A stretch of 64,000 nt of DNA from IMG/VR virus record IMGVR_UViG_3300032323_001487, positions 1 through 64,000 of that record. One strand, given 5' to 3'. Positions 15,464 through 42,469 of the stretch are shown here, piece after piece (position 1 is the stretch's first letter; each line of letters opens with the position of its first letter). Source of the stretch: a virus. The position numbers and the translations under genes were made by a program. Below the pieces are notes generated by a model, which saw only the letters and a program-made list of their open reading frames with translations, was not told the origin of the DNA and did not search any database.

Positions 15464-15696
15464 TGGCAAACATCTGCGGATGGTGTATGACTGGGTATCA
15501 CGACACGTGTAACCCAAAAATTGTTTTCTACGACAAAGTTTGGTATTGTAACTGTGTCCAATGTAAAGACAAGCAAACTGAAGGAGTGACGAATGAGGAA
15601 CCTGTTTCGCAAACTGTTCTACCCGAACCGACCGCTGACACATCAGCACGGTCCGAGGCACCTACTACTAAAAAAGTAAAAAGAAAACTGAAATGA
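15463..15696 (+). CDS. Small zinc-binding protein
   Basis: 77 aa, GTG start. CGWCMTGYHDTC (about 5-16) and CNCVQC (about 29-34) form a likely zinc knuckle, followed by a disordered Thr/Pro/Glu linker and a basic tail (KKVKRKLK). Possibly nucleic-acid binding. Overlaps the Mom-like gene by 4 bp. Confidence 0.6.
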   Translation: MANICGWCMTGYHDTCNPKIVFYDKVWYCNCVQCKDKQTEGVTNEEPVSQTVLPEPTADTSARSEAPTTKKVKRKLK

Positions 15697-16319
15697 TTGA
15701 CTACACCATAAAGCAGGTGTCGTCCAAAGAATCCAACCAGATGGTCGTGGACAACCACTACCTTCATCGCAAGGCATCGAATATGTATGCCTATGGTCTG
15801 TTCGATGGCGACGAGATGATTGGCTGTGTGATTTACGGGAAACCAGCATCGCCCAGTTTGTGTGTAGGAGTTTGTGGTCCAGAGGAATCTAGCCAAGTGC
15901 TTGAACTAACCAGACTCTGGATTGCTGACAAAACTCCAAAGAACACAGAGTCATACCTGATTGGTCGTAGCCTAAGGATGTTGCCAAAAGACAGAGACAT
16001 CATCGTGTCCTATGCCGAAATCGGAGCAGGTCACGTCGGCACTGTCTACCAAGCGACCAACTGGATTTATACGGGAATGTCCGACCGACACGTTGAGTGG
16101 AGATTAGACGGAGAATCCAGCACACACTCACGCCACATCTTTGACGAGCACGGCGGAGTAAATGGAGCAAAGGCTTTCTTCGGCGACAGACTCGAAAGAC
16201 ACGAGCGCCCACGAAAGCATCGATACGTTTTCTTCAACACTTCATCGAAGCGCAGGAAACGAGAACTCTTAGACAAACTAAGATATAAAATCCAACCCTA
16301 TCCAAAGAAGGAAACCTAA
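15693..16319 (+). CDS. Mom-like DNA-modification protein (GNAT-like fold)
   Basis: 208 aa. The pattern matches phage Mom-family adenine-modification proteins: NHYLHR (21-26), YGLFDGDEMIGCVIYGKP, LELTRLWIADKTPKNTESYLIGRSLRML (about 70-97) and SYAEIGAGHVGTVYQATNWIYTG (about 106-128). In phage Mu, Mom converts adenine to a carbamoylmethyl-type adduct that blocks restriction. Here it probably protects phage DNA in the same way, in an operon with a glycosyltransferase. The C-terminal third is basic (RRKRELLDKLRYK). Assignment rests on motif recognition. Confidence 0.72.
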   Translation: MIDYTIKQVSSKESNQMVVDNHYLHRKASNMYAYGLFDGDEMIGCVIYGKPASPSLCVGVCGPEESSQVLELTRLWIADKTPKNTESYLIGRSLRMLPKDRDIIVSYAEIGAGHVGTVYQATNWIYTGMSDRHVEWRLDGESSTHSRHIFDEHGGVNGAKAFFGDRLERHERPRKHRYVFFNTSSKRRKRELLDKLRYKIQPYPKKET

Positions 16320-17014: not shown

Positions 17015-17944
17015 ATGTCAGACCCTCGTGCTATAGATTCGGCAGACCCTTTCTCTACTCCCATCGCGGAGAAGCCAGACGTTCAGGTCGACACTCCAAC
17101 CAACCTCCGCCCCGACCTTTCCCAATATGGAATCGAAGAAGTAGACAAGGGCATCTGCGAAGACACGTATGAGAACCGCGCTGCCTTACGTCGAGCAAAG
17201 ATGAACTGGATTCCTGTTTACGCAGTGAACGGCGTTCCTACTGGAACCATCCAAGCCATCTCCCCCGAGATGCAAACTCAGCAAAGAATGTTGAGCCTCG
17301 ATGAGAAGGTCGCAATTCTTTCAGACCCTAAAAATAAAAACTCGGATTACTTGACGGGCTTCGACCTTCTTGCTGAATCCGAGGGCGACTTGATTGCGCC
17401 ACCTTGGGTTCTCGGCGCGACGCGCGTTTGGGCAAAACTCTATAATGAAGCGAATGGCGATTTCGAATCGCTTGGAAAAAAGGTACCCCCTTTACCATCA
17501 CGTTGTAAGGCCATCAAGGACGACGGCATCCGCTGTCAGTTATGGACTGGAGGACGTCCACAAGATGACGGCTTCTGTCGCGTTCACCTTGGCGCGTTAC
17601 GCAATAAACCGACGGACTCAGTTGAACGTGCTCGCGCACGTCTGACTCAGGTTGCCCCTGTTGCTGTAGACACCCTTGAGCAGTTGATGGAGTCAGCCGA
17701 GTCTGAGCCAGTGAAACTAAAAGCAGCCACAGAAATTTTGGACCGCGCGGGTGTCAGAGCAGGCTTTGATATAAATACTGATGTTACTCTAGACGTCAGG
17801 CCCGCTGCTTCTATAATCGCCGAACGTCTACAACGGTTAGCCCAAAACACCATTGACGCTCAGAGACGTATCGAAGAATCACAGCCACCGACCATTGAAG
17901 TAGAAGTAGAAGAAGCAGAGGTAGTTCCAGATGACGCTAAGTGA
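17015..17944 (+). CDS. Zinc-knuckle/HTH protein, possible terminase-accessory
   Basis: 309 aa. The centre carries CKAIKDDGIRCQLWTGG..GFCRVH (about 163-191), a Cys3His zinc knuckle. The C-terminal third (LTQVAPVAVDTLEQLMESAESEPVKLKAATEILDRAGVRAG) resembles the helical DNA-binding segment seen in actinophage proteins annotated as small terminase or terminase-associated. The terminase large gene lies 23 kb away, so this remains tentative. ATG is preceded by an AAGGACG RBS and a structured leader. Confidence 0.5.
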   Translation: MSDPRAIDSADPFSTPIAEKPDVQVDTPTNLRPDLSQYGIEEVDKGICEDTYENRAALRRAKMNWIPVYAVNGVPTGTIQAISPEMQTQQRMLSLDEKVAILSDPKNKNSDYLTGFDLLAESEGDLIAPPWVLGATRVWAKLYNEANGDFESLGKKVPPLPSRCKAIKDDGIRCQLWTGGRPQDDGFCRVHLGALRNKPTDSVERARARLTQVAPVAVDTLEQLMESAESEPVKLKAATEILDRAGVRAGFDINTDVTLDVRPAASIIAERLQRLAQNTIDAQRRIEESQPPTIEVEVEEAEVVPDDAK

Positions 17945-18140
17945 ACTAATTGAGTTAGCGACGGAGCACACCTTACGGCTCGCGGAAGACGTCAAACTTG
18001 CGTCGACTAGAATGGAACACGTGCGGGTCACGGCTCGCGCTAATGAAGCATCGAACTTACTCCACGCCCTAATGCACTACACACCCGACGGATTGCCAGC
18101 AAACAATGTCTCTATTTCAGAAACCGAACCCGACGAGTAA
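17931..18140 (+). CDS. Small helical hypothetical protein
   Basis: 69 aa, begins MTLSELIELATEHTLRLAED. Two helices, acidic C-terminus. It overlaps both neighbours (14 bp and 35 bp). No family recognised. Confidence 0.55.
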   Translation: MTLSELIELATEHTLRLAEDVKLASTRMEHVRVTARANEASNLLHALMHYTPDGLPANNVSISETEPDE

Positions 18141-18882
18141 CGTCGAGCGTTTTGTTGCACAAGCCCTAAGTTATAACGGATACACCGCGAGCGCGGGCCG
18201 TATCAATATCTTCGGCGAGCGCCTTGGTATGAACGGCTTGCCTTGGGACGGTATCTTTATTGACGTCGTGGCCCGCGAAGTCGGCGTGTCCTTACCGTCT
18301 CACATTTATCCGCCCGTCGCGCTCGCGGAATACATGGGGTCGGGACTTTTCCGTGCGAAGCCTCGACGGGGAGACATTGTGTTCTTCGCGACGTCTGAGG
18401 TGATGGACTTCGGCTCGCCTCACGTTGGTATAGTAACGGATGCCTCACGGCACGCGATAGACGGAACGTTCACGACGGTGGAGGCTATGGTCGGAAACGG
18501 CAAGCCTAAGAGTCCGCAAAATGGAGACGGAGTGTATGTTCGCGTCCGTCACCAAACGGAGGTCATCGGATATGCCCGTCCACGTTTTATTTCTTTAGCA
18601 GAACGGATGACCAAAGCGGGAGATGTTCCAACGGTTGTTCCTGCTCAGTTGCGTAACGGCTTGCGTCATAAGAACGTCGAGGTGGTTCAACTCGCGCTCG
18701 CTGGATTGTTCACGGACGTTCGCGGTTTGCCACGGGGACACTTCGATACACGGACTCGACTTGCTTACGCCAGATTCCAACGGAGCATCGGATATCCGCC
18801 TTCGCGTGCCACAGGTGAGGTTGACCTCGCATCCCTGCAACGGCTTGCCGAGATGACGGGTTTGTTCACCGCGAGCGCGTAG
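18106..18882 (+). CDS. NlpC/CHAP-like protein lacking the catalytic Cys, plus PG-binding domain
   Basis: 258 aa. Residues 10-160 follow the CHAP/NlpC-P60 pattern: VERFVAQALSYNGYT, GMNGLPWDGIFIDVVAREVGV where WC is expected, GDIVFF (89-94) and SPHVGIVTD (H106). The nucleophile position carries D48 (W47-D48-G49) instead of Cys, so a normal thiol mechanism is impossible. A PG_binding_1-like repeat follows (LRHKNVEVVQLALAGL...FDTRTRLAYARFQRSIG). It may be a cell-wall-binding virion or lysis-accessory protein. Higher GC than its neighbours. Confidence 0.6.
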   Translation: MSLFQKPNPTSNVERFVAQALSYNGYTASAGRINIFGERLGMNGLPWDGIFIDVVAREVGVSLPSHIYPPVALAEYMGSGLFRAKPRRGDIVFFATSEVMDFGSPHVGIVTDASRHAIDGTFTTVEAMVGNGKPKSPQNGDGVYVRVRHQTEVIGYARPRFISLAERMTKAGDVPTVVPAQLRNGLRHKNVEVVQLALAGLFTDVRGLPRGHFDTRTRLAYARFQRSIGYPPSRATGEVDLASLQRLAEMTGLFTASA

Positions 18883-22213: not shown

Positions 22214-23212
22214 ATGACTGAGACTACTTTTATTGAGAAGGCAGAGCGCCTTCACGCAGATTTGCCAGCAGTTCTTTATGGACTTGCCGGGCAAGCGATA
22301 AACTCAGAGTTGGGAAAAACTCTCGACTCTTACTACGACGACAAAGTAGGTCGCGCTGTTATTCGCAATCGTGGATTAGTGAAAGGCAAAATCATTAGCG
22401 CAGATGCTCTTGTAGGAGAAGACTCTTACGCAAGACCTAATGGCGACAAATACTTTGCTCGCAACTGGGGTTCTAGCGCACATAAGGATGTCGAGGTTCT
22501 TCGCAAGAGTCGCGATGTCAATCAGTTCGTGTTGCTATATGGCGCACCTGGTTGTGGAAAAACCGCGCTCGCGGAAGCCGCGTTTGGTTCAGACCTTTAC
22601 ACAGTTCTAGGTTCTGGCGACACAGAAGTTTCCGACTTGGTTGGTGGCTATGTCCAGACTCCAAGTGGCTCGTTCGAGTGGGTCGATGGTCCTCTCCTTC
22701 GCGCAGCAGAAGAAGGCAAAGTTCTTCTGATTGACGAAGTGGGTCTTATCGACTCGAAGGTTCTGACTGTTGTCTATGGACTTATGGATGGTCGTCGCGA
22801 GTACACAGTTACTGCTAACCCAGAGCGCGGCACAGTCAAGGCGAAGGATGGATTCTTCGTTATCGCTGCGACTAACCCAAACGCACCGGGCGTAGTTCTC
22901 TCAGAGGCTTTGCTATCGCGATTCACTATTCAGGCAGAAATGACTACTGACTGGTCGCTCGCGAAGAAGTTGGGCGTTCCTATGCAAATGGTTACTGCGG
23001 CGCAGAACCTTGCTAAGAAGTTCACCAGCGACGAAGTTTCGTGGGTTCCTCAGATGCGCGAGTTGCTCGCGTTCCGAGACCTGTCGAAAGTATTTGGCAC
23101 CTCGTGGGCTATCGAGAATTTGATAGCCGCCTGCCCTGAGTTAGACAGACCTACTGTGGTCGATGTGCTGACTCGTGTGTATGGCGAGGAGTGCCGCGCA
23201 GCCAGAATCTAG
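22214..23212 (+). CDS. MoxR/CobS-type AAA+ ATPase
   Basis: 332 aa. Walker A GAPGCGKT (110-117), Walker B VLLIDEVG (about 171-178), sensor-1 FFVIAATNPN and a downstream arginine-finger region (LSEALLSRFTIQAEM). The order and the SGDTEVSDLVGGYVQ and DGPLLRAAEEGKVL segments match the MoxR/CobS family. Paired with the VWA protein at 23345, like CobS-CobT or RavA-ViaA. Such pairs act as chaperones in metal insertion or complex remodelling. The phage role is unknown; interference with host complexes or virion assembly are options. Confidence 0.85.
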   Translation: MTETTFIEKAERLHADLPAVLYGLAGQAINSELGKTLDSYYDDKVGRAVIRNRGLVKGKIISADALVGEDSYARPNGDKYFARNWGSSAHKDVEVLRKSRDVNQFVLLYGAPGCGKTALAEAAFGSDLYTVLGSGDTEVSDLVGGYVQTPSGSFEWVDGPLLRAAEEGKVLLIDEVGLIDSKVLTVVYGLMDGRREYTVTANPERGTVKAKDGFFVIAATNPNAPGVVLSEALLSRFTIQAEMTTDWSLAKKLGVPMQMVTAAQNLAKKFTSDEVSWVPQMRELLAFRDLSKVFGTSWAIENLIAACPELDRPTVVDVLTRVYGEECRAARI

Positions 23213-23236
23213 GCTCCTTCCCCTAGATTCTCTAGC

Positions 23237-23272
23237 GAGGGGGTGGGTTGGTTCTCCCCAACTCACCCTCTC
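23237..23272 (+). terminator. Large intergenic hairpin, terminator-like
   Basis: A 15 bp stem with two G-U pairs (GAGGGGGTGGGTTGG / CCAACTCACCCTCTC) and loop TTCTCC. Only a weak T-tract follows, so it may act as an mRNA 3'-end stabiliser. Confidence 0.55.
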
Positions 23273-23278
23273 TTCAAC

Positions 23279-23307
23279 TTGACAATCAATAAAAAATCCT
23301 TTACCAT
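23279..23307 (+). promoter_or_regulatory. Promoter for the VWA gene
   Basis: TTGACA (23279-23284), 17 bp, TACCAT (23302-23307). The VWA gene can be transcribed separately from its ATPase partner. Confidence 0.65.
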
Positions 23308-23344
23308 TACAGAGTAGCAATTAGATGAAAGGACACAAAGACTA

Positions 23345-25207
23345 ATGGCTCATTACTCACCTAGTATCGAAACTAGAAAATCCACTCCAACTGAGTGGCT
23401 ACGAATTGGCGCACAGATTGGTCAAATCGTAAACAACTGGTCTTACAGAGACGACCTCGTGGTCTATCTAGGAGAAGAGATGTCTGCGCCTTACGCAGCG
23501 CTCTTCAATCCTGCGAGCGCCGAGGTCGAGGTCAACGTGGTTCGAGCATTTGGCTCGTTCGCAAATCCTGCTTTGATTGGCGACCTCACCAAGCGCAAGA
23601 ATCAACTCGAGCACGCATCAGGTTGTGGCTCTGTCTATCACGAGGCTTGCCACGCGCGGTTCACTCGCTGGTCTCTCGCAGACGCTGCTCGTATTTTGAC
23701 TAAGCGCGAGCACGATGCTCTGATGCTTTTGGAAGAAGGTCGCATCGAATCTTTTGGAGTCGCCTCAATCCCGGGCAACAAAATTCTTCTTCGCTCTTCT
23801 GGTATGGAAATCGCGATTGGCGACTTCGACAAAGTTAAGGAGAACCTCACCAGCATCGATAGCGTCGTTCAGTTGTGTGGGCTAATGCTTGCTCGCGTTG
23901 ATGCTGGCGTTTTCACAGAAGAAGATGTCGAGCCTTTGGCAGAAGTTGTTGACTTAGCGATTGGCGCAGACAACGTTGCCAAGTTGCGTTCTATCTGGAT
24001 TGCGTTCCAAGCGCACGACCAGCACACCAACGCTCTACCTCTTTACGACCTTGCTCGCGAGTGGGTCAGGATTGTAGACGAGATTAAGTCAGAGAAGGGC
24101 GAAGAGCCTAGCGATGATGGTTGCTCTTACCCTGGAGCATCAGGTGAGCCGGGCGCATCAAGCGAGCCGGGCGAGCCAAGCGAATCAGGTGAGCCAAGCG
24201 AGAACCCAATTTGGAAAGCAGTCAACAAGGCTCTTGAAGATGCTATCGAAGAAATAAAAGACAACATCCAGATTGACAACCAGACTGCGATTGACAACGC
24301 AATCGAAGACGAAGAGATGCGCGAAGAAGTTCAGGCTCGCAACTCTGAGGCAGAACGTCGTCAAGAAGAGAAGAAGGTTTCTGATGAAGTCTTTGGTCGT
24401 GGCACTGGTCCTAGCGCAGACACTAAGACTCGCTCGAGACTAATCGAGAGTCGCAAGCCAACTAGTTCAGAGCGAGCCTCTGCTGTTCGCGTTGCTCGAC
24501 TACTCGACAAAGCGAAATACCGCGAGCGCGAACAAACTCGTATCAAGAGCGTAGTTCCACCGGGTCGTCTTCGCACGCGAGCAATCGTTCAGGGTCAGGC
24601 TCTCAAGTCGAAGGGTATCAACCAAGAGACAGAGGCGTGGCGTAGAACCCAGCGCAAGCACACAGAAGACCCAACTCTTCACGTGGGCGTGCTGGTAGAC
24701 ATCTCAGGCTCGATGCGTAGCGCGATGAACCCAATGGCGACAACTGCTTGGGTTCTGTCAGAGGCTGGTCGTAGGATTCAGGCTCAGACTTCGATGGTCT
24801 ACTTCGGCAATGGCGTGTTCCCGACTCTCAAGCCGGGACAGCACCTAGACGAAGTGAAGGTCTACTCGGCGACTGACAACACCGAGCGATTCGAGAAGGC
24901 GTTCAAGGCGCTGAACGGTCAGATGAATCTGACTCGCAGTTCGGGCGCTCGTCTGCTCGTGATTGTGTCTGACGGATACTACGACTACGACCAGCGCGAG
25001 GCTGCTAGCAAAGCGGTAGCGGAGTGCGAGAAGGCAGGCGTGGCAGTTATCTGGCTCACCTACGACGAAGGCTCGACGGCTAAGGCGATTCTGCGGAACA
25101 GCAAGAACGCCCGACTGATTCTCGCTCACGGCAAGACATCGGAAGAGGTCGCGCAACTAATCGGTAGCGAGTCTGCCGATGCGCTGACCAAGGTCGGTAG
25201 GAGATAA
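23345..25207 (+). CDS. CobT/ViaA-like VWA-domain protein with HExxH motif
   Basis: 620 aa. The N-terminal part holds YHEACHARF (H99-E-x-x-H), a zincin-like motif found in phage CobT-type proteins. The middle has a disordered Gly/Glu/Pro/Ser repeat (GEPSESGEPSE, about 258-285) and acidic helices. The C-terminal VWA domain starts at about 445 with the MIDAS motif D452-I-S-G-S, followed by a conserved Thr/Asp strand (LLVIVSDGYYDYD). The MIDAS binds Mg and a partner. Works with the MoxR-type ATPase upstream. GC bias is higher than in neighbours. Confidence 0.82.
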   Translation: MAHYSPSIETRKSTPTEWLRIGAQIGQIVNNWSYRDDLVVYLGEEMSAPYAALFNPASAEVEVNVVRAFGSFANPALIGDLTKRKNQLEHASGCGSVYHEACHARFTRWSLADAARILTKREHDALMLLEEGRIESFGVASIPGNKILLRSSGMEIAIGDFDKVKENLTSIDSVVQLCGLMLARVDAGVFTEEDVEPLAEVVDLAIGADNVAKLRSIWIAFQAHDQHTNALPLYDLAREWVRIVDEIKSEKGEEPSDDGCSYPGASGEPGASSEPGEPSESGEPSENPIWKAVNKALEDAIEEIKDNIQIDNQTAIDNAIEDEEMREEVQARNSEAERRQEEKKVSDEVFGRGTGPSADTKTRSRLIESRKPTSSERASAVRVARLLDKAKYREREQTRIKSVVPPGRLRTRAIVQGQALKSKGINQETEAWRRTQRKHTEDPTLHVGVLVDISGSMRSAMNPMATTAWVLSEAGRRIQAQTSMVYFGNGVFPTLKPGQHLDEVKVYSATDNTERFEKAFKALNGQMNLTRSSGARLLVIVSDGYYDYDQREAASKAVAECEKAGVAVIWLTYDEGSTAKAILRNSKNARLILAHGKTSEEVAQLIGSESADALTKVGRR

Positions 25208-25262: not shown

Positions 25263-25291
25263 TTGACACGGCAAGCGATTAGCGCAATAAT
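25263..25291 (+). promoter_or_regulatory. Promoter for the 25333 gene
   Basis: TTGACA (25263-25268), 17 bp, AATAAT. A CGACACGCC box lies 20 bp upstream. The spacer contains CGGCAAGCG. Confidence 0.6.
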
Positions 25292-26437: not shown

Positions 26438-26467
26438 TTGACAAATGTCAGCCCTGACCCTTATTAT
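26438..26467 (+). promoter_or_regulatory. Promoter for the 26501 operon
   Basis: TTGACA (26438-26443), about 18 bp, TATTAT. TGACAAATGTCA overlaps the -35 as an imperfect dyad. Confidence 0.65.
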
Positions 26468-27770: not shown

Positions 27771-28157
27771 ATGACAACTATGACAAAAGTTCTACAAGAC
27801 TCAGCGTTCTACACGAACGAAGCAGGCACAGAGGTTGTATGGGACAACGACCCTAACAAGCGTTTCTATGTCGTGCGTGCTGGCGAAATGCGTATCCACG
27901 CAACCAAAGATGGACACACAGAGGTTATTCGCTACACAGACCAACTACGAGACTTTGGCATTACAGATGATGACGCGCTCGCGGTTTGGTCTGCTAAAGA
28001 CGAAGAAGTATTTTCTTGGGTGAACAACTCTTGGTTCGAGGTCTACGACGCAAATGACTCATACTATTTCTCAGACCCACTCCACTCTTTAGACGAGGCA
28101 GTAGAGTTCGCTCTAGCATTGTCAAAGACTTTTGGCAAAGATGGAGAGGTGGCGTAA
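27771..28157 (+). CDS. Hypothetical protein
   Basis: 128 aa from the ATG at 27771 (AAAAGGAC upstream; ATG at 27747 is an alternative). Beta-rich start (RFYVVRAGEMRIHATKDGHTEVIRY) and an aromatic, acidic C-terminal half (WVNNSWFEVYDANDSYYFSD). Directly coupled to the regulator gene at 28157. No family recognised. Confidence 0.6.
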   Translation: MTTMTKVLQDSAFYTNEAGTEVVWDNDPNKRFYVVRAGEMRIHATKDGHTEVIRYTDQLRDFGITDDDALAVWSAKDEEVFSWVNNSWFEVYDANDSYYFSDPLHSLDEAVEFALALSKTFGKDGEVA

Positions 28158-28432
28158 TGAAAGTTCGACAAGCAGTTGGCGAGGTAATCCGTGAGGCACG
28201 CCTCGAGCGCAAGATGACTCTTCGAGACCTGTCGTCAGTTTCTAGCGTCGCCCTTGGATACCTGAGCGAACTCGAGCGTGGACAGAAAGAGGCTTCATCA
28301 GAAATCCTCGACAGCGTGGCACTCGGCTTGGGTATCTCACTTTCCGAATTAGTGGTTCAGACGGGTTATAGAATAATGTTGAACGAACCCGCCAACGAGC
28401 CTGAGAGACTCTTAGAGTTCGCACGGGTCTAA
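28157..28432 (+). CDS. XRE-family regulator resembling ClgR/PspR
   Basis: 91 aa. HTH_3 domain: IREARLERKMTLRDLSSVSSVALGYLSELERGQKEASSEILDSVALGLGISLSELV. The GYLSELERGQKEASSE recognition-helix region is strikingly like actinobacterial ClgR, which activates clp protease and related genes. A phage copy may rewire host proteostasis or act as the early-gene repressor binding the AATGTC sites of nearby promoters; neither is shown. Start overlaps the upstream stop (TAATG). Confidence 0.8.
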   Translation: MKVRQAVGEVIREARLERKMTLRDLSSVSSVALGYLSELERGQKEASSEILDSVALGLGISLSELVVQTGYRIMLNEPANEPERLLEFARV

Positions 28433-28664: not shown

Positions 28665-28777
28665 ACAACGGGCGTAGGTTCACCCCCCTCGAACCTACGG
28701 CTCGTGCCTGATGGGTTTATTGCTTTTCCCATCACGGCTCGCCCCCTAACTGCTTCCCCCAGCGGTTAGGGGGTTTT
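28665..28777 (+). ncRNA. Candidate structured ~113 nt small RNA
   Basis: Delimited by a promoter and a strong terminator, without an ORF. Three hairpins in order: CGTAGGTTC / GAACCTACG (28673-28699, 9 bp, C-rich loop), TGATGGG / CCCATCA (28709-28734) and the terminator stem. The C-rich loop (ACCCCCCTC) is a plausible antisense seed for the GGGGTAG-type repeats or ribosome-binding sites. Confidence 0.55.
28742..28777 (+). terminator. Strong Rho-independent terminator
   Basis: CCCCCTAACTGC pairs with GCGGTTAGGGGG (one G-U) around TTCCCCCA, then TTTT. Confidence 0.9.
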
Positions 28778-28823: not shown

Positions 28824-28851
28824 TTGACGGATAGCCCTGAGCGTGTATAAT
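28824..28851 (+). promoter_or_regulatory. Promoter for the 28891 gene
   Basis: TTGACG (28824-28829), 16 bp, TATAAT (28846-28851) with a TG just before it. TTGACGGATAGCCC also belongs to the ACGGCNNGCC motif family, showing that the motif can supply a -35 box. Confidence 0.7.
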
Positions 28852-29537: not shown

Positions 29538-29587
29538 GACAGAGTGAAGTTCGATTGGCTTCACGAAAAAAGCAAAAGGAGTTTCAA

Positions 29588-30034
29588 ATGACCAACCCAG
29601 CAAGCGAGCGACAGGTCGCATACATCAACACGCTAATCGCAGAGCGTGGCTACCCAGAGCCTATTGACCTAGCAACCTTGACATCAAGAACTGCCAGCGA
29701 ACTAATCTCGAAGTTGATGGCTATGCCAAAAATTAGTCGTGGGGCTGACAAGGCTTTGTCTCAGGGTATGTATCACCTAGCAGGCGACATCTATCGCTTG
29801 AAGGAGAGTCGCCAGACAGGTCGCCTTTACGCCACTCGCCTGACCATTGACCACAAGTTCGAGTATGCTCCGGGGATTGCCTATCGCCTAACCAGCGAAG
29901 ACAAGATGACCTTAGAGCAGGCAAAGGCTTATGGGGTCGAGACAGGGTTCTGCTGTGTCTGTGGGGCGTTCCTAACTGACGAGCGTTCTGTTCGTGATGG
30001 CATTGGCCCGGTCTGCGCCAAAAAGTATTTTTAG
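29588..30034 (+). CDS. DUF6011-like zinc-knuckle protein
   Basis: 148 aa from the ATG at 29588 (AAAAGGAG RBS; open to 29555). N-terminal ASERQVAYINTLIAERGYPE helix and TSRTASELISKLMAM resemble the helical domain often found in front of DUF6011. The C-terminal FCCVCGAFLTDERSVRDGIGPVCAKKYF matches the DUF6011 zinc-binding signature (CxxCGxxLTD..S...GIGPVC). Such proteins are common in actinophages; role unknown. Confidence 0.75.
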   Translation: MTNPASERQVAYINTLIAERGYPEPIDLATLTSRTASELISKLMAMPKISRGADKALSQGMYHLAGDIYRLKESRQTGRLYATRLTIDHKFEYAPGIAYRLTSEDKMTLEQAKAYGVETGFCCVCGAFLTDERSVRDGIGPVCAKKYF

Positions 30035-30166: not shown

Positions 30167-30466
30167 ATGAAAGAAATCAAGAAAGTTGAACTCGGTTTCA
30201 ACGCAGACGCACGACAGGCACTCGCAGAGTTGCTTGAAGCCAAGGCAGTTATCGCTCAGGCTACCGCCAAGAAGGAAGCCGCCCAGAAGGTTCTGTTTGA
30301 CCTAGTAGGCGACCACAACCAAGCGACCTTCGGTGGCGTTCTATCGTTCAAGATTATTGACGGCAAGAACCGCCACGCTGACCTGACAATTCTCGAAGAG
30401 AAGTATCCCGAGATTTTCGCCGAAGTAATCCGCACAACTGAATACAAGCAAATCCGAACCGCCTAA
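30167..30466 (+). CDS. Hypothetical coiled-coil protein
   Basis: 99 aa, begins MKEIKKVELGFNADARQALA. An Ala/Glu/Lys coiled coil (LLEAKAVIAQATAKKEAAQK) is followed by a small beta/alpha unit (ATFGGVLSFKIIDGKNRHADLTILEEKYPEI..VIRTTEYKQIR). The latter looks like the short domain at the ends of phage recombination or nuclease accessory proteins, but the match is weak. AAGGACA RBS. Confidence 0.55.
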   Translation: MKEIKKVELGFNADARQALAELLEAKAVIAQATAKKEAAQKVLFDLVGDHNQATFGGVLSFKIIDGKNRHADLTILEEKYPEIFAEVIRTTEYKQIRTA

Positions 30467-30492
30467 TCCCCCAACGGCGTTCGGTCGGCAAG

Positions 30493-30516
30493 CCCCCAGA
30501 GCAATCTGGGGGTTTT
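30493..30516 (+). terminator. Rho-independent terminator
   Basis: CCCCCAGA / TCTGGGGG with loop GCAA, then TTTTG. The ACGG repeat array begins immediately after. Confidence 0.85.
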
Positions 30517-30519
30517 GTC

Positions 30520-30960
30520 TTTAACGGCTAGCCCTTGACGGCTCGCCCTATGACCGCCAACGGATAAGACCAACGGCTAGCCCTTGACGGCTCGCCTGAT
30601 ACGGATTGACGGCTCGCCCTATGCCAACGGCTCGCCCTTGACGGACAGCACGCCAGCGGGTCGCTGACGGCTTGCCCTTGACGGCTCGCCCTTGACGGAC
30701 AGACGGACACAGACGGCTCGCCCTATGACCGCTGACGGCTTGCCCGTAGGAAGTCCAACGGCTTGCCCTAAGAGACCCTGACGGGTCGCTAACGGCTTGC
30801 CTATGACGGCTTGCCCTAAACGCCCAACGGGTGAGCGTGTAGAGCCTGACGGGTCGTGTTTTGACGGGTGGGGGAGTGGGAGTCGGGAGAGCCTGACGGA
30901 TAGGTAAAAGGGGGGTGAAGCGATTGACGGGTGGGAAGGGGGAGACGCCGGGGATTGACG
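30520..30960. repeat. ACGGCNNGCC repeat array, candidate origin iterons
   Basis: About 440 bp without a credible gene. At least a dozen copies of ACGGCT(A/C/T)GCC, many as TTGACGGCTCGCCC, occur at irregular 13-25 bp steps (for example near 30524, 30537, 30573, 30586, 30605, 30624, 30680, 30714, 30734, 30758, 30802). Degenerate ACGGGT and ACGGAC copies extend to about 30960. All are in the same orientation. The GGCTNGCC core is a near-palindrome. Such clusters resemble iterons or multi-site operator arrays. Confidence 0.7.
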
Positions 30961-30966
30961 GGTGGG

Positions 30967-30990
30967 TAAAGGGGTAGTGGATTTTCCAGA
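30967..30990 (+). repeat. Dispersed intergenic repeat, copy 7
   Basis: TAAAGGGGTAGTGGATTTTCC, then AGACTTGACA, so a TTGACA abuts it. Confidence 0.6.
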
Positions 30991-31145
30991 CTTGACAAAG
31001 TGGCTGAGTCATGTAGACGCACTCGAAGAAGGGACTCATGAAGGGGGTCGAAGATGGGGGACTCATGAAGGGGGGTTGGGAGTCATGGGGGCGAAGGGGA
31101 AGAAGGGGGGAAGTTCAGGGGGAAGGGGGAAGCCGGGAAAGGTTT

Positions 31146-31175
31146 TGGAAAAGGGGTAGGGGATTTTCCAAGCGA
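31146..31175 (+). repeat. Dispersed intergenic repeat, copy 8
   Basis: TGGAAAAGGGGTAGGGGATT then TTCCAAGCGAG. GGAAAA and TTTTCC arms could pair in this copy. Confidence 0.65.
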
Positions 31176-31187
31176 GTTTTTAGGTCT

Positions 31188-31216
31188 AAAAAACACAAGA
31201 TACAAAAAAAGTCAAG
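31188..31216 (+). repeat. A-rich direct repeat, copy 1
   Basis: 29 bp A-rich segment (core ACACAAGATAC) that matches 31394-31422 at 27 of 29 positions. Each follows a dispersed-repeat copy, so a ~70-90 bp module is duplicated. Confidence 0.7.
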
Positions 31217-31332
31217 TCGTGATGAGTCGAAGTTCAGCAAGAAGCACGCAAGATGAGCAAGAAGCACCCAAGATAAGCAAGATAAGCAATAAAACAGGAG
31301 AAGTTCGAGAAAGTTGCCTCGAAAACGAGGCA

Positions 31333-31363
31333 GGAAAAAGGGGTATAGGTTTTTCCAAGCGAT
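31333..31363 (+). repeat. Dispersed intergenic repeat, copy 9
   Basis: GGAAAAAGGGGTATAGGTTT then TTCCAAGCGA, close to consensus. Confidence 0.65.
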
Positions 31364-31393
31364 TTTCTCGACCCAAGAAGCGTCGAGTCCATC

Positions 31394-31422
31394 AAAAAAC
31401 ATAAGATACGAAAAAAGTCAAG
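31394..31422 (+). repeat. A-rich direct repeat, copy 2
   Basis: Partner of 31188-31216 with two substitutions (core ACATAAGATAC). Confidence 0.7.
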
Positions 31423-31590
31423 TTTTATCGACTCATCAAACGCAAAAAATAACAAAGAAAACAAAGAACGAACCAAAAAACAGAGAACGAGCAAAGCGAA
31501 GGAGAAGAAGCGAAGGAGAAGTTCAGGAAGTTCAGCAAAGAAATAAAAATCCCCAGGCCCTGGACCTGGAACCACCTGGGTGGTATTTCC

Positions 31591-31619
31591 GCGTGGAAAA
31601 CCAAAGACCCCTTTTTTTA
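31591..31619 (-). repeat. Dispersed intergenic repeat, copy 10 (reverse)
   Basis: GCGTGGAAAACCAAAGACCC then CTTTTTTT, reverse orientation. Confidence 0.6.
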
Positions 31620-31670
31620 TTTTCTATCCCTGGCAGGAAACTTTCTGGGACTCAGCAAAAGAGATAGCAA

Positions 31671-37657: not shown

Positions 37658-37686
37658 TTGACAACACAATGGCTATTTGCTACAGT
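37658..37686 (+). promoter_or_regulatory. Promoter for the HDAC-like gene
   Basis: TTGACA (37658-37663), 17 bp, TACAGT (37681-37686). Confidence 0.65.
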
Positions 37687-37721
37687 TATCAGGTAATCAA
37701 AAGACGAAAGGACAAAAACTT

Positions 37722-38690
37722 ATGACTACTCACAAACTAAAGGTCGCATATAGCCCTGACTACCTGAACTGGCAACTTGGCTCAGGCGATGGCAACCACC
37801 CTACTCAGCCGATTCGTGCGCGTATCGCGCTGGAGTGGCTAAAGGAAGACCTAGGCTCAGAAGTTGATGTTATCGACCCTGATATCAAGCGAGCAGACAG
37901 ACGCGAGTTGGAGACTATTCACCACCCCGCTTTTGTTAGTGAAGTTCTAGACCTTGGAGAGTGTGCCGATTGGACAGACTCAAGGCCACAGATGGGACAG
38001 ACTGCGCTAAAGATGTTTTCTGGAACTGCGCGACTAGTCGAGATGATTATTCGTAATCAGACAAAGATTGGCTTCAACCCACAGGGAGCAAAGCATCACG
38101 CGCAATACCGAACTTCAGAAGGTTTCTGCGTGTTCAATGACTTCGCTTGGGCTGCCAAAGCCTTCAAGCGTGCTGGACTCAAGGTTGTCTACATCGACTG
38201 GGATGTAAATGCTGGTGATGGTGTTCAGAACTTGCTTGCCGATACAGACATTCCAACCTTCAGTATTCACGGGCACGGGATTTACCCAACCCACTCAGAT
38301 ACTTGGAATGGTGACTACGAGAGCAAGAACACCACTGGAAACTACACTTGGCACAACGAAGCGAAGCACTGGTATAACTGGTGCCTAGTTCGTGGCGAAG
38401 GCGATGCTGGATTCAAGTGGGCTATCGACGAGATTGCTAAGAAGGTTGCCGAGTATAAGCCTGATGTAATCCTGCTTGCTACTGGAGCAGATGGTCACGA
38501 AGGCGAACACTGGGGACTGAAATACACCTTCGATGGTTATGCCTATGCGTCAAAGGTTGTTGCTGAACTGGCTAACAAGTATGCCGATGGTCGCGTGTTG
38601 ATTGGTGGTGCTGGTGGTTATCAGCCGTACACCCACACCCCGCGCATCTGGGCAAATGTCGTAAGAGACATCTACGAGCAAACTAACTAG
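37722..38690 (+). CDS. HDAC/AcuC-fold deacetylase-like protein with altered zinc site
   Basis: 322 aa. Arginase/HDAC-fold landmarks: RPxxMGQTALKMFSGTARL, G-A-K-H125-H126 (catalytic His pair), FCVFNDFAWAAKAFKR, VVYIDWDVNAGDGVQNLL (159-172), FSIHGHGIYPTHSDT and LLATGADGHEGE (D257). The usual D-x-D-x-H-H-G motif reads D-W-D161-V-N163-A-G, so the zinc-ligand His is replaced by Asn; D161 and D257 remain. It may use another metal geometry, or bind acetylated ligands or polyamines without fast turnover. GGACA before the ATG; the operon continues with the 38698 gene. Confidence 0.8.
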   Translation: MTTHKLKVAYSPDYLNWQLGSGDGNHPTQPIRARIALEWLKEDLGSEVDVIDPDIKRADRRELETIHHPAFVSEVLDLGECADWTDSRPQMGQTALKMFSGTARLVEMIIRNQTKIGFNPQGAKHHAQYRTSEGFCVFNDFAWAAKAFKRAGLKVVYIDWDVNAGDGVQNLLADTDIPTFSIHGHGIYPTHSDTWNGDYESKNTTGNYTWHNEAKHWYNWCLVRGEGDAGFKWAIDEIAKKVAEYKPDVILLATGADGHEGEHWGLKYTFDGYAYASKVVAELANKYADGRVLIGGAGGYQPYTHTPRIWANVVRDIYEQTN

Positions 38691-40626: not shown

Positions 40627-40977
40627 TTACTTCAGAACCGAGAGCAGTTTCTCTTCCTGCTCTTTAGTCAGACCTAGAGTCTCGCCTTCGTCGTCTGCTC
40701 CACCAGTGATTACTATGTCGCCCATTATTAGGTCAGTCTTGCCGTAAGACAACTCCCAAAGGTATGTGGCAACAAAGTTGAATGGCAGACCATCGAGTTT
40801 GCCTTCTTCGTTACACCACATAGTTAGGTCATCCACTGGCTTCTCCAGTGGGACAGCCTGAATGTAGCCACCAACCGATGACTTCAGGTATTGGTATTCT
40901 GCTTTGTCAGAACCTTCTGGTATCGTCTCGATAATTATTTCGCTATTAGTTGTAATGCGGATAGCCGTCTTTGACAT
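40627..40977 (-). CDS. DUF3846 protein
   Basis: 116 aa. YLKSSVGGYIQAVPLEKPVDDLTMWCNEEGKLDGLPFNFVATYLWE..IMGDIVITGGADDEGETLGL is the DUF3846 pattern (GG.I..V......L...NEEG.L.GLP.N..AT.L......D.I.GD.....D..G). The family occurs in phages and plasmids of Gram-positive hosts; function unknown. It has its own promoter, divergent from the terminase. Confidence 0.82.
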   Translation of the reverse strand: MSKTAIRITTNSEIIIETIPEGSDKAEYQYLKSSVGGYIQAVPLEKPVDDLTMWCNEEGKLDGLPFNFVATYLWELSYGKTDLIMGDIVITGGADDEGETLGLTKEQEEKLLSVLK

Positions 40978-41017
40978 CTTGTCTCCTTGTTCAATAAGCG
41001 ATGATGCTTATGGAATA

Positions 41018-41046
41018 AGTAAACCACAATCTATGGCTCTTGTCAA
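41018..41046 (-). promoter_or_regulatory. Promoter for the DUF3846 gene
   Basis: Minus strand TTGACA (41046-41041), 17 bp, TTTACT (41023-41018), the same architecture as the small-gene promoters. Confidence 0.65.
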
Positions 41047-41071
41047 GCGTGTCCTATGTAATAATAGACCT

Positions 41072-42469
41072 ATGGCTAAATCTATTATGGAACAAATTGC
41101 GATGCTCCCCGATGATGAGCGAGCAGTCGTTCTTGCTGGAATGGATGCGGACACACTTATGTGGGACTGGTCAGTTTGGGGAAGACCAGAGCAACAGGCT
41201 CCACAGGGAGACTGGAACATCTGGATGTATATGGCTGGTCGTGGTGCTGGTAAGACTAGGACTGCTGCTGAGTGGGTTCGCGAAGAAGCCAAATACACCA
41301 ATACGGGTCAGAGAAGATTCGGACTCGTTGCTAGAACTGCTGCCGATGTTCGTGACGTTATCGTCGAAGGTGAGTCAGGGATTATGAATGTGTCTGCTCC
41401 AAGTGAGAAGCCTTTGTATGAACCATCTAAGCGTCGTCTTACTTGGCCTAATGGCAACACTGCCACTCTCTTCACAGCCGATGAACCAGACTCACTTCGT
41501 GGACCCCAGTTCACTCACGCTTGGGGAGATGAGATTGCGTCTTGGAGACAGACCCCAGATGGCGCTGGTATGACAGCCTTCGACAACCTTCGTGTTGGAA
41601 CTCGTCTAGGCTCACACCCAAAGATTATGATTACCACTACGCCTAAGCGAGTGCCGATTCTTTATCAGTTGCTGGCTGAGAATACCAAAGACCCTAGCCG
41701 TGTAGTTATAACTCGTGGTTCAACACTCGACAACTCAGGTAACTTGTCTAACGCATACCTTGACGCAATCACTGGAGTGTATGCGGGCACCCGTCTTGCT
41801 CAACAGGAACTCTATGGTGAGATGTTGGACAATGTTGAAGGCGCACTATGGAACGATGAGTTACTGAGTAGGTATCGCGAAAACGTAATGCCACTTAGTG
41901 CTCCACTTCGCATCATAGGTGTAGACCCTTCAGTAGCAGAGAACCCGCGAGATGAGTGTGGAATTGTTGTGTGTGCTGCCACTGCCGAGCGTGACTTGTA
42001 TAAGCGCAATGCTTGGGTGTTAGAAGACGCAACCATTCACGGCTCACCTGAAGTGTGGGCGAACAAAGTAGTTCAGATGGCACGCAAGTGGGGTTGCCCA
42101 GTCGTAGCCGAAATCAACCAAGGTGGTGCCTTAGTTCGCAATGCCATCAATGCGATTGACCCGAACATCAAGGTGCTAGAAGTTCACTCTAAATATGGCA
42201 AGGCTCTACGTGCCGAGCCAGTAGTTCTTGGATATGAGCAAGGTCGCGTTCATCACTTGGGATACCACGCAGACCTAGAGAGTCAGATGCTTGCTTGGAT
42301 TCCAGGAGAAGGCAAATCACCAGACCGTGTAGACGCGTTAGTTCACGCGCTAACAGCACTGATGATTAAGCCACCTGCTGGATTCGTTGGGGGAAAACTT
42401 ACTGCTAGGTCATTCGCATCTCGTAGAATTCCAGAAGCGAAGAGCACCTTCTTCAGACTTAGTAAGTAA
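41072..42469 (+). CDS. terL: Terminase large subunit
   Basis: 465 aa from the ATG at 41072; the upstream frame (to 40904) covers a promoter region and is rejected. AATAAT ends 7 bases before this ATG. ATPase: Walker A GRGAGKT, Walker B THAWGDEIA, and TTTPKRVP as coupling motif. RNase H-like nuclease: GVDPSV, AEINQGG and SPDRVDALVHAL supply acidic metal ligands. Length fits Terminase_6-type motors. It cuts and packages DNA into the prohead; the portal gene is 2.5 kb downstream. Confidence 0.93.
   Translation: MAKSIMEQIAMLPDDERAVVLAGMDADTLMWDWSVWGRPEQQAPQGDWNIWMYMAGRGAGKTRTAAEWVREEAKYTNTGQRRFGLVARTAADVRDVIVEGESGIMNVSAPSEKPLYEPSKRRLTWPNGNTATLFTADEPDSLRGPQFTHAWGDEIASWRQTPDGAGMTAFDNLRVGTRLGSHPKIMITTTPKRVPILYQLLAENTKDPSRVVITRGSTLDNSGNLSNAYLDAITGVYAGTRLAQQELYGEMLDNVEGALWNDELLSRYRENVMPLSAPLRIIGVDPSVAENPRDECGIVVCAATAERDLYKRNAWVLEDATIHGSPEVWANKVVQMARKWGCPVVAEINQGGALVRNAINAIDPNIKVLEVHSKYGKALRAEPVVLGYEQGRVHHLGYHADLESQMLAWIPGEGKSPDRVDALVHALTALMIKPPAGFVGGKLTARSFASRRIPEAKSTFFRLSK

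Follow-up and report, generated by a model that had tools for sequence, protein, structure and literature searches.

Genes and features of the locus

The whole stretch of DNA that was analysed (64 kb, hereafter the window) comes from a virus record of 77,230 bases and belongs to a lake phage. Its relevant features are sorted according to their position. C1 to C4 are clusters of a short word, ACGG.

17015-17944, + strand: candidate terminase small subunit (TerS) gene, 309 aa
17961-19493, + strand: C1; 39 ACGG on the + strand and 6 on the - strand, mostly within the endolysin-like gene and downstream of it
18106-18882, + strand: endolysin-like gene (CHAP and PG-binding matches below the cut-off); carries much of C1
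25207-25436, + strand: C2; 7 ACGG in the stretch where the VWA gene ends and gene 25333 starts, around a promoter (25263-25291)
28157-28432, + strand: gene of a ClgR-like helix-turn-helix protein, an alternative candidate binder; adjoins C3
28504-28876, + strand: C3; 9 ACGG, 3 of them strict, surrounding a terminator (28741-28774) and a promoter
29555-30034, + strand: DUF6011 protein gene, 5' of C4; syntenic marker
30167-30466, + strand: 99-aa gene matching the C-terminal part of phrog_434 (RecE-like), directly 5' of C4; syntenic marker
30490-30515, + strand: intrinsic terminator between gene 30167-30466 and C4
30474-30966, + strand: C4, the array; 13 strict ACGGCNNGCC (30524-30815), then looser ACGGGTCG / TTGACGGGTGGG units
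30967-31660, no strand assigned: gene-free purine-rich strip with direct repeats, 3' of C4; predicted right edge of a candidate long terminal repeat
40904-42469, + strand: terminase large subunit gene

The 17015-17944 gene is a candidate TerS gene, assigned through weak matches. A profile built from this phage family only was compared with 177,635 PDB sequences. It gave two matches, weak but specific, both of them small terminases (7joq, E=7.6e-4; 6w7t, 0.075), over a segment with the signature 'kaAteiLDRaG'. The gene also matches phrog_2538 (E=0.0023). More than 60 of the examined relatives have a TerS-like homolog at the corresponding position. In Microbacterium phages, the homolog is gene 1, and it is named terminase small subunit in Cece. 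The AlphaFold model of the candidate is poor (pTM 0.29), and a fold search with this model returned no match at E <= 0.001. The homolog of the 18106-18882 gene is annotated as an endolysin in DSL-LC01, the closest named phage.

Two other features of the window are recorded here. A MoxR/CbbQ-like AAA ATPase and a CoxE-like VWA protein are encoded as a pair (22214-25207) that is conserved throughout the family. A histone-deacetylase-like protein, encoded by a phage, is found at 37677-38690 (Pfam, E=4e-47).

The array and the adjoining gene-free strip

Exact copies of the word ACGGCNNGCC number 24 in the window, and every one is on the + strand (dinucleotide shuffles: 1.2 +/- 1.2, largest value 5). 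Thirteen of them lie inside about 300 bp (30524-30815); when the array stretch was shuffled 1,000 times with dinucleotides preserved, 0.03 were obtained on average and never more than 1. ACGG cores between 30470 and 30970 number 26 on the + strand and 1 on the - strand. The site consensus is about TTRACGGCTNGCCYTTT; it is asymmetric, with a core RACGG. The consensus of C4 itself is TTRACGGCTNGCCYTTT, with G at position +7 in 90% of the sites. No gene is found around C4: gene 30167-30466 stops upstream and the next gene begins at about 31671. The strip that follows is strand-asymmetric (66% purine, AT skew 0.37, GC skew 0.26). An earlier note on this DNA had described at least a dozen same-orientation copies in a gene-free region, beside strand-asymmetric DNA with direct repeats; each of these points holds. 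Its underlying view, that of a functional-looking array of a protein-binding type next to unusual gene-free DNA, is right, and the array is conserved.

A second repeated intergenic element, AAAAGGGGTAGNGGNTTTTCCAAGCG, is present at 30968, 31149, 31335 and 31879 and, reversed, near 31590. Its TTTTCCATGC versions are found in the post-array strip of relatives.

Site spacings in the C4 of the window and of the relatives L040, L056, L073, L080 and L082 favour 14, 22 and 30, that is 8-nt steps. Helical phasing at 10-10.5 bp was rejected, being weak. No promoter-like site was found inside C4, and a promoter array was rejected accordingly. A coding array was rejected because the spacings and the small indels among near relatives disrupt the reading frames. 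A structured RNA was also rejected: the array of the window folds no better than shuffles (z=+1.4). The folding excess of the L080 array was obtained with a stretch that contained the terminator hairpin. A scan against Rfam gave tRNAs only. Similar DNA was not found in phage and plasmid collections.

Four clusters in one block

The strict sites of the window are limited to C1-C4, with none elsewhere and none on the - strand. All four clusters lie within one block of about 13 kb that starts at the candidate TerS gene; C4 is the densest. C1 starts 17 bp past the end of this gene. The earlier placing of looser copies at about 18.6-31 kb only is right and is sharpened here to C1-C4, from 17961 onwards. 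Between the clusters, ACGG and CCGT are found 0.4 and 0.3 times per kb, versus about 3 elsewhere, which partly reflects a general shortage of CGG. CCGG between the clusters of array phages is five-fold over expectation; elsewhere in the same genomes, it is five-fold under.

Since the word-rich region is coding, a test with synonymous codons was run. The endolysin-like gene of the window carries 20 ACGG, versus 6.3 +/- 1.5 expected, an excess that exceeds codon choice. No comparable excess of ACGG was found in other genes of at least 450 bp.

Promoter elements of other types were also observed. The element TTGACAAATGTC(A) recurs at 26438, 29508, 32032 and 36353, 5' of small early genes. In it, a -35 box and an inverted repeat (TGACAAATGTCA) overlap, and the element looks like a shared operator-promoter. 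In DSL-LC01 (L118 30200-36200), another promoter element, TTCTAAAGNTGTTATAATNGAATCA, precedes nearly every small gene.

Conservation in relatives

Eighty relatives were collected via the AAA ATPase gene. The comparison with related phages proposed in the earlier note shows the array to be conserved. It is kept in G001 and G002 (132,624 bases, circular assembly), two relatives that are nearly identical. Among the eighty, seven divergent relatives (L040, L056, L073, L076, L080, L081 and L082; AAA ATPase 64-68% identity) have an array of the same orientation in the equivalent position, in a conserved order: gene, terminator, array, long gene-free DNA. The four clusters are also found in near-complete relatives of 132-135 kb. 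A weight matrix (threshold 12) applied to G000, G002, G004 and G005 gave 29-31 sites on the + strand, versus 2-5 on the - strand, in four clusters. In these records (77-135 kb), sites outside the post-TerS block are at background. DSL-LC01, a lake metagenome phage (PMC10611076), has no array. Other IMG/VR matches to one exact pattern (L010-L014, L018-L025) are isolated, come from higher-GC phages and were treated as chance.

Genes specific to array phages were considered as source of the binder and rejected: they encode a Mom-like protein, a GNAT/ABC-like protein and unknowns, with no clear DNA binder.

The array phages have other sequence peculiarities. AGCT and GATC are absent (0 in 64 kb; 0 in each of the four array relatives G000, G002, G004 and G005, 77-135 kb). 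They are common in relatives without an array (DSL-LC01, G008); G009 has 714 AGCT and 10 GATC. GGCC, TGCA, GTAC and CATG are also rare in the window and the array relatives. This pattern looks like near-total avoidance of restriction sites. A Mom-like DNA-modification gene is found at 15693-16319 (Pfam, E=5e-46). In the comparison of complete relatives, it was restricted to phages with the array, those without AGCT and GATC.

A strand-specific word beside TerS across the family

Enrichment of the word beside TerS extends outside the array clade. In 29 nonredundant relatives of this kind, ACGG reaches about 15 per kb on the + strand in the kilobase after TerS, versus 2-5 elsewhere and 2-3 on the - strand. 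It is the most enriched of the 256 tetramers after TerS (393 vs 106). CGG words in general are also more frequent in this DNA. Of 1,024 5-mers scored at 68 nonredundant freshwater loci, AACGG ranks first by mean score. Single lineages favour GACGG, AGCGG or AACCG. Four Microbacterium phages have AACCG instead (87 vs 8 expected), limited to the + strand and to the ~3 kb next to the genome end. It is above synonymous expectation in their TerS and endolysin genes; it is not in the portal gene and another large gene. No description of such a word was found in the part of the literature that was searched.

The post-TerS DNA of some relatives (e.g. L045, L065, L085) is rich in GGCCTG (74 vs 4.9) and AGCGGC (70 vs 6.5), perhaps a second or a diverged word.

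Terminal repeats of Microbacterium phages

Direct terminal repeats are found in Pumpernickel (19,963 bp), Cece (18,079 bp), Zooman (17,079 bp) and A3Wally (15,503 bp). They were taken from deposited genomes. Ends of actinophages, e.g. Streptomyces cluster BE1, have been identified by read pile-ups and doubled coverage (PMC5764925). The Microbacterium repeats begin 62-63 bp before the TerS homolog, which places the deposited genome end there. At the other end, they close with a terminator followed by about 600 bp without genes.

The block of the window resembles these repeats in several respects. Its order of TerS, endolysin and small genes is the one found at the Microbacterium genome end, a cluster of an oriented word is found near TerS, and a post-terminator gene-free strip is found at the right repeat end, here a predicted one. 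The terminator at 30490-30515 resembles the one that precedes the right end of the terminal repeat in Pumpernickel. The setting of C4, post-terminator and gene-free, was likened to the right ends of the four Microbacterium repeats, which makes the 30967-31660 strip a candidate right edge. By analogy with the Microbacterium relatives, the block may thus be a long direct terminal repeat, of the kind also known in Streptomyces cluster BE1 (PMC5764925), T5 and SPO1. The Microbacterium phages differ in their word, AACCG instead of RACGG, and lack arrays equivalent to C2-C4; the repeat of the window phage is a predicted one. The relatives are collapsed circular assemblies, with overlaps of 108-119 bp. 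Nothing convincing was found in a comparison of the two predicted repeat boundaries for shared sequence. In the Microbacterium repeats, AACCG does not peak at the right end; the role proposed for C4 is therefore not copied from a known case.

Packaging as the preferred reading

The preferred reading is that the sites lie in a predicted long terminal repeat and serve as targets of a packaging protein, probably TerS. A probability of roughly 0.45, somewhat short of even odds, is given to this reading. It is favoured because the block starts at a TerS-like gene, because the homologs of this gene lie at genome ends and because the word is enriched beside TerS. The figure is held at this value because C4 has no counterpart in Microbacterium phages, because the assemblies are collapsed and because C2 and C3 are located at promoters and terminators. 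The distance of C4 from TerS (12.5 kb) also counts against packaging, and the overlap of C2 and C3 with promoters and terminators fits regulation. The weak matches behind the TerS assignment and the general wealth of CGG words in the post-TerS DNA weigh on the same side.

C1 would lie near the TerS-side end of the predicted repeat and C4 near its far end. On concatemers made by replication, the many oriented sites could load terminase in a single polarity. The concatemers would then be recognised, cut and packaged, so as to leave the repeat at both ends.

In its mode of action, the array would be most like pac recognition DNA, with many sites and a remote array. The pac sites of the headful phages P22, SPP1 and P1 (reviewed in PMC9611059) are recognition DNA in or near the small-terminase gene; they are found in coding sequence, are asymmetric and set the start of packaging. 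The pac of P1 contains hexamer repeats. Both C1 and the family-wide peak are in or beside the small-terminase gene; C4 is not. The pac of P22 is a single 22-bp sequence inside the small-terminase gene (PMC9611059), whereas dozens of short sites are spread here over kilobases, with an intergenic array 12.5 kb away. The array is tentatively regarded as a variant of a packaging signal.

Alternative readings

Two alternatives, a replication origin and an operator or roadblock array, are kept as rivals because C2 and C3 overlap promoters and terminators.

The first alternative, raised in the earlier note, is an iteron-type origin: a phage initiator would bind the oriented repeats and open the AT- and purine-rich strip. 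This is unlikely, and a signal for DNA packaging is the likelier role of the array. As in the iteron origins of plasmids and phages, tandem same-orientation repeats are found next to AT-rich, strand-asymmetric or easily melted DNA. The direct repeats are ordered, and their spacing at the 3' edge is partly conserved (16-22-30-49 in L056, L076, L080 and L081). They are followed by long gene-free DNA that carries a second repeated element in the relatives, AAAAGCATAAG, and that ranks among the largest gene-free gaps of each genome. However, third-position coding-strand skews track the strand of the genes, with no shift at the array, in three relatives that are complete or nearly so (weak evidence in phages), so that the skew analysis proposed earlier brings the origin no positive support. 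No initiator-like match was found among the scanned genes beside the array. Many sites run through the endolysin coding sequence beside TerS, and it is this cluster, not C4, that is common family-wide; an origin would not account for such a placement.

The second alternative is that of an array of operators or roadblocks. An early repressor or activator, e.g. the ClgR-like protein (28157-28432), would insulate transcription units and control promoters in the manner of the stoperators of mycobacteriophages. Such a role is quite unlikely. C2, C3 and C4 come after gene ends and terminators, and every site points along transcription. Sites of C2 and C3 overlap in places promoters, terminators and one ribosome-binding site: TTGACACGGC is found at 25263 and 28630, and the -35 box at 28824 that the earlier note had pointed out is real (TTGACG, 16 nt, TATAAT at 28846-28851). 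The former "master operator" keeps some ground only as a rival reading, through these two clusters; C4 itself holds no promoter-like site. Moreover, the site of L040 that corresponds to the -35 overlap sits at a different, non-promoter spacing, the ClgR-like gene is also present in several relatives without intergenic arrays, and dozens of sites are found in and after the endolysin gene. Stoperators are likewise asymmetric, in one orientation relative to transcription and partly at gene ends. Unlike them, the sites considered here form a dense array in one place and occur in coding DNA, and the repressor is only a candidate.

An injection-stop or first-step-transfer signal is improbable. The repeat with the early genes would enter first and entry would pause at the far-end strip, in parallel with the first-step transfer and entry pause of phage T5. 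The location of the array, at the far end of the predicted repeat block and in repeat-rich gene-free DNA, suits this role, which leaves C1-C3 and the word beside TerS unexplained. Two-step injection is not known from these phages.

Chi-like protective or recombination sites, read near genome ends by a host nuclease of the AddAB/AdnAB type, are very improbable: a short oriented word is indeed found near the deposited Microbacterium genome ends and some lineages are rich in AGCGG, but the word is on the same strand near the left end and, by the rule of E. coli Chi, would serve an enzyme coming from the far end, Chi sites are scattered whereas C4 is dense and ordered, and the word is not the same from phage to phage.

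Implications for long terminal repeats

The recognition of very long terminal repeats and their duplication during packaging are poorly understood. DNA recognition by small terminases has been described as unresolved (PMC9611059). Under the packaging reading, a wider proposal can be made, which is possible although doubtful at this stage. Large long-repeat actinophages would mark their repeat with a strand-specific word that changes together with TerS (RACGG in freshwater lineages, AACCG in Microbacterium phages), and one clade would have added an ordered intergenic array at its far end. Such a signal, bipartite and kilobase-scale where pac and cos sites are compact, would let terminase recognise and duplicate a repeat of 13-20 kb. 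The question becomes testable with a conserved strand-specific word that varies with TerS across many phages, culturable Microbacterium phages included. Genome ends could also be predicted from sequence alone by means of this word.
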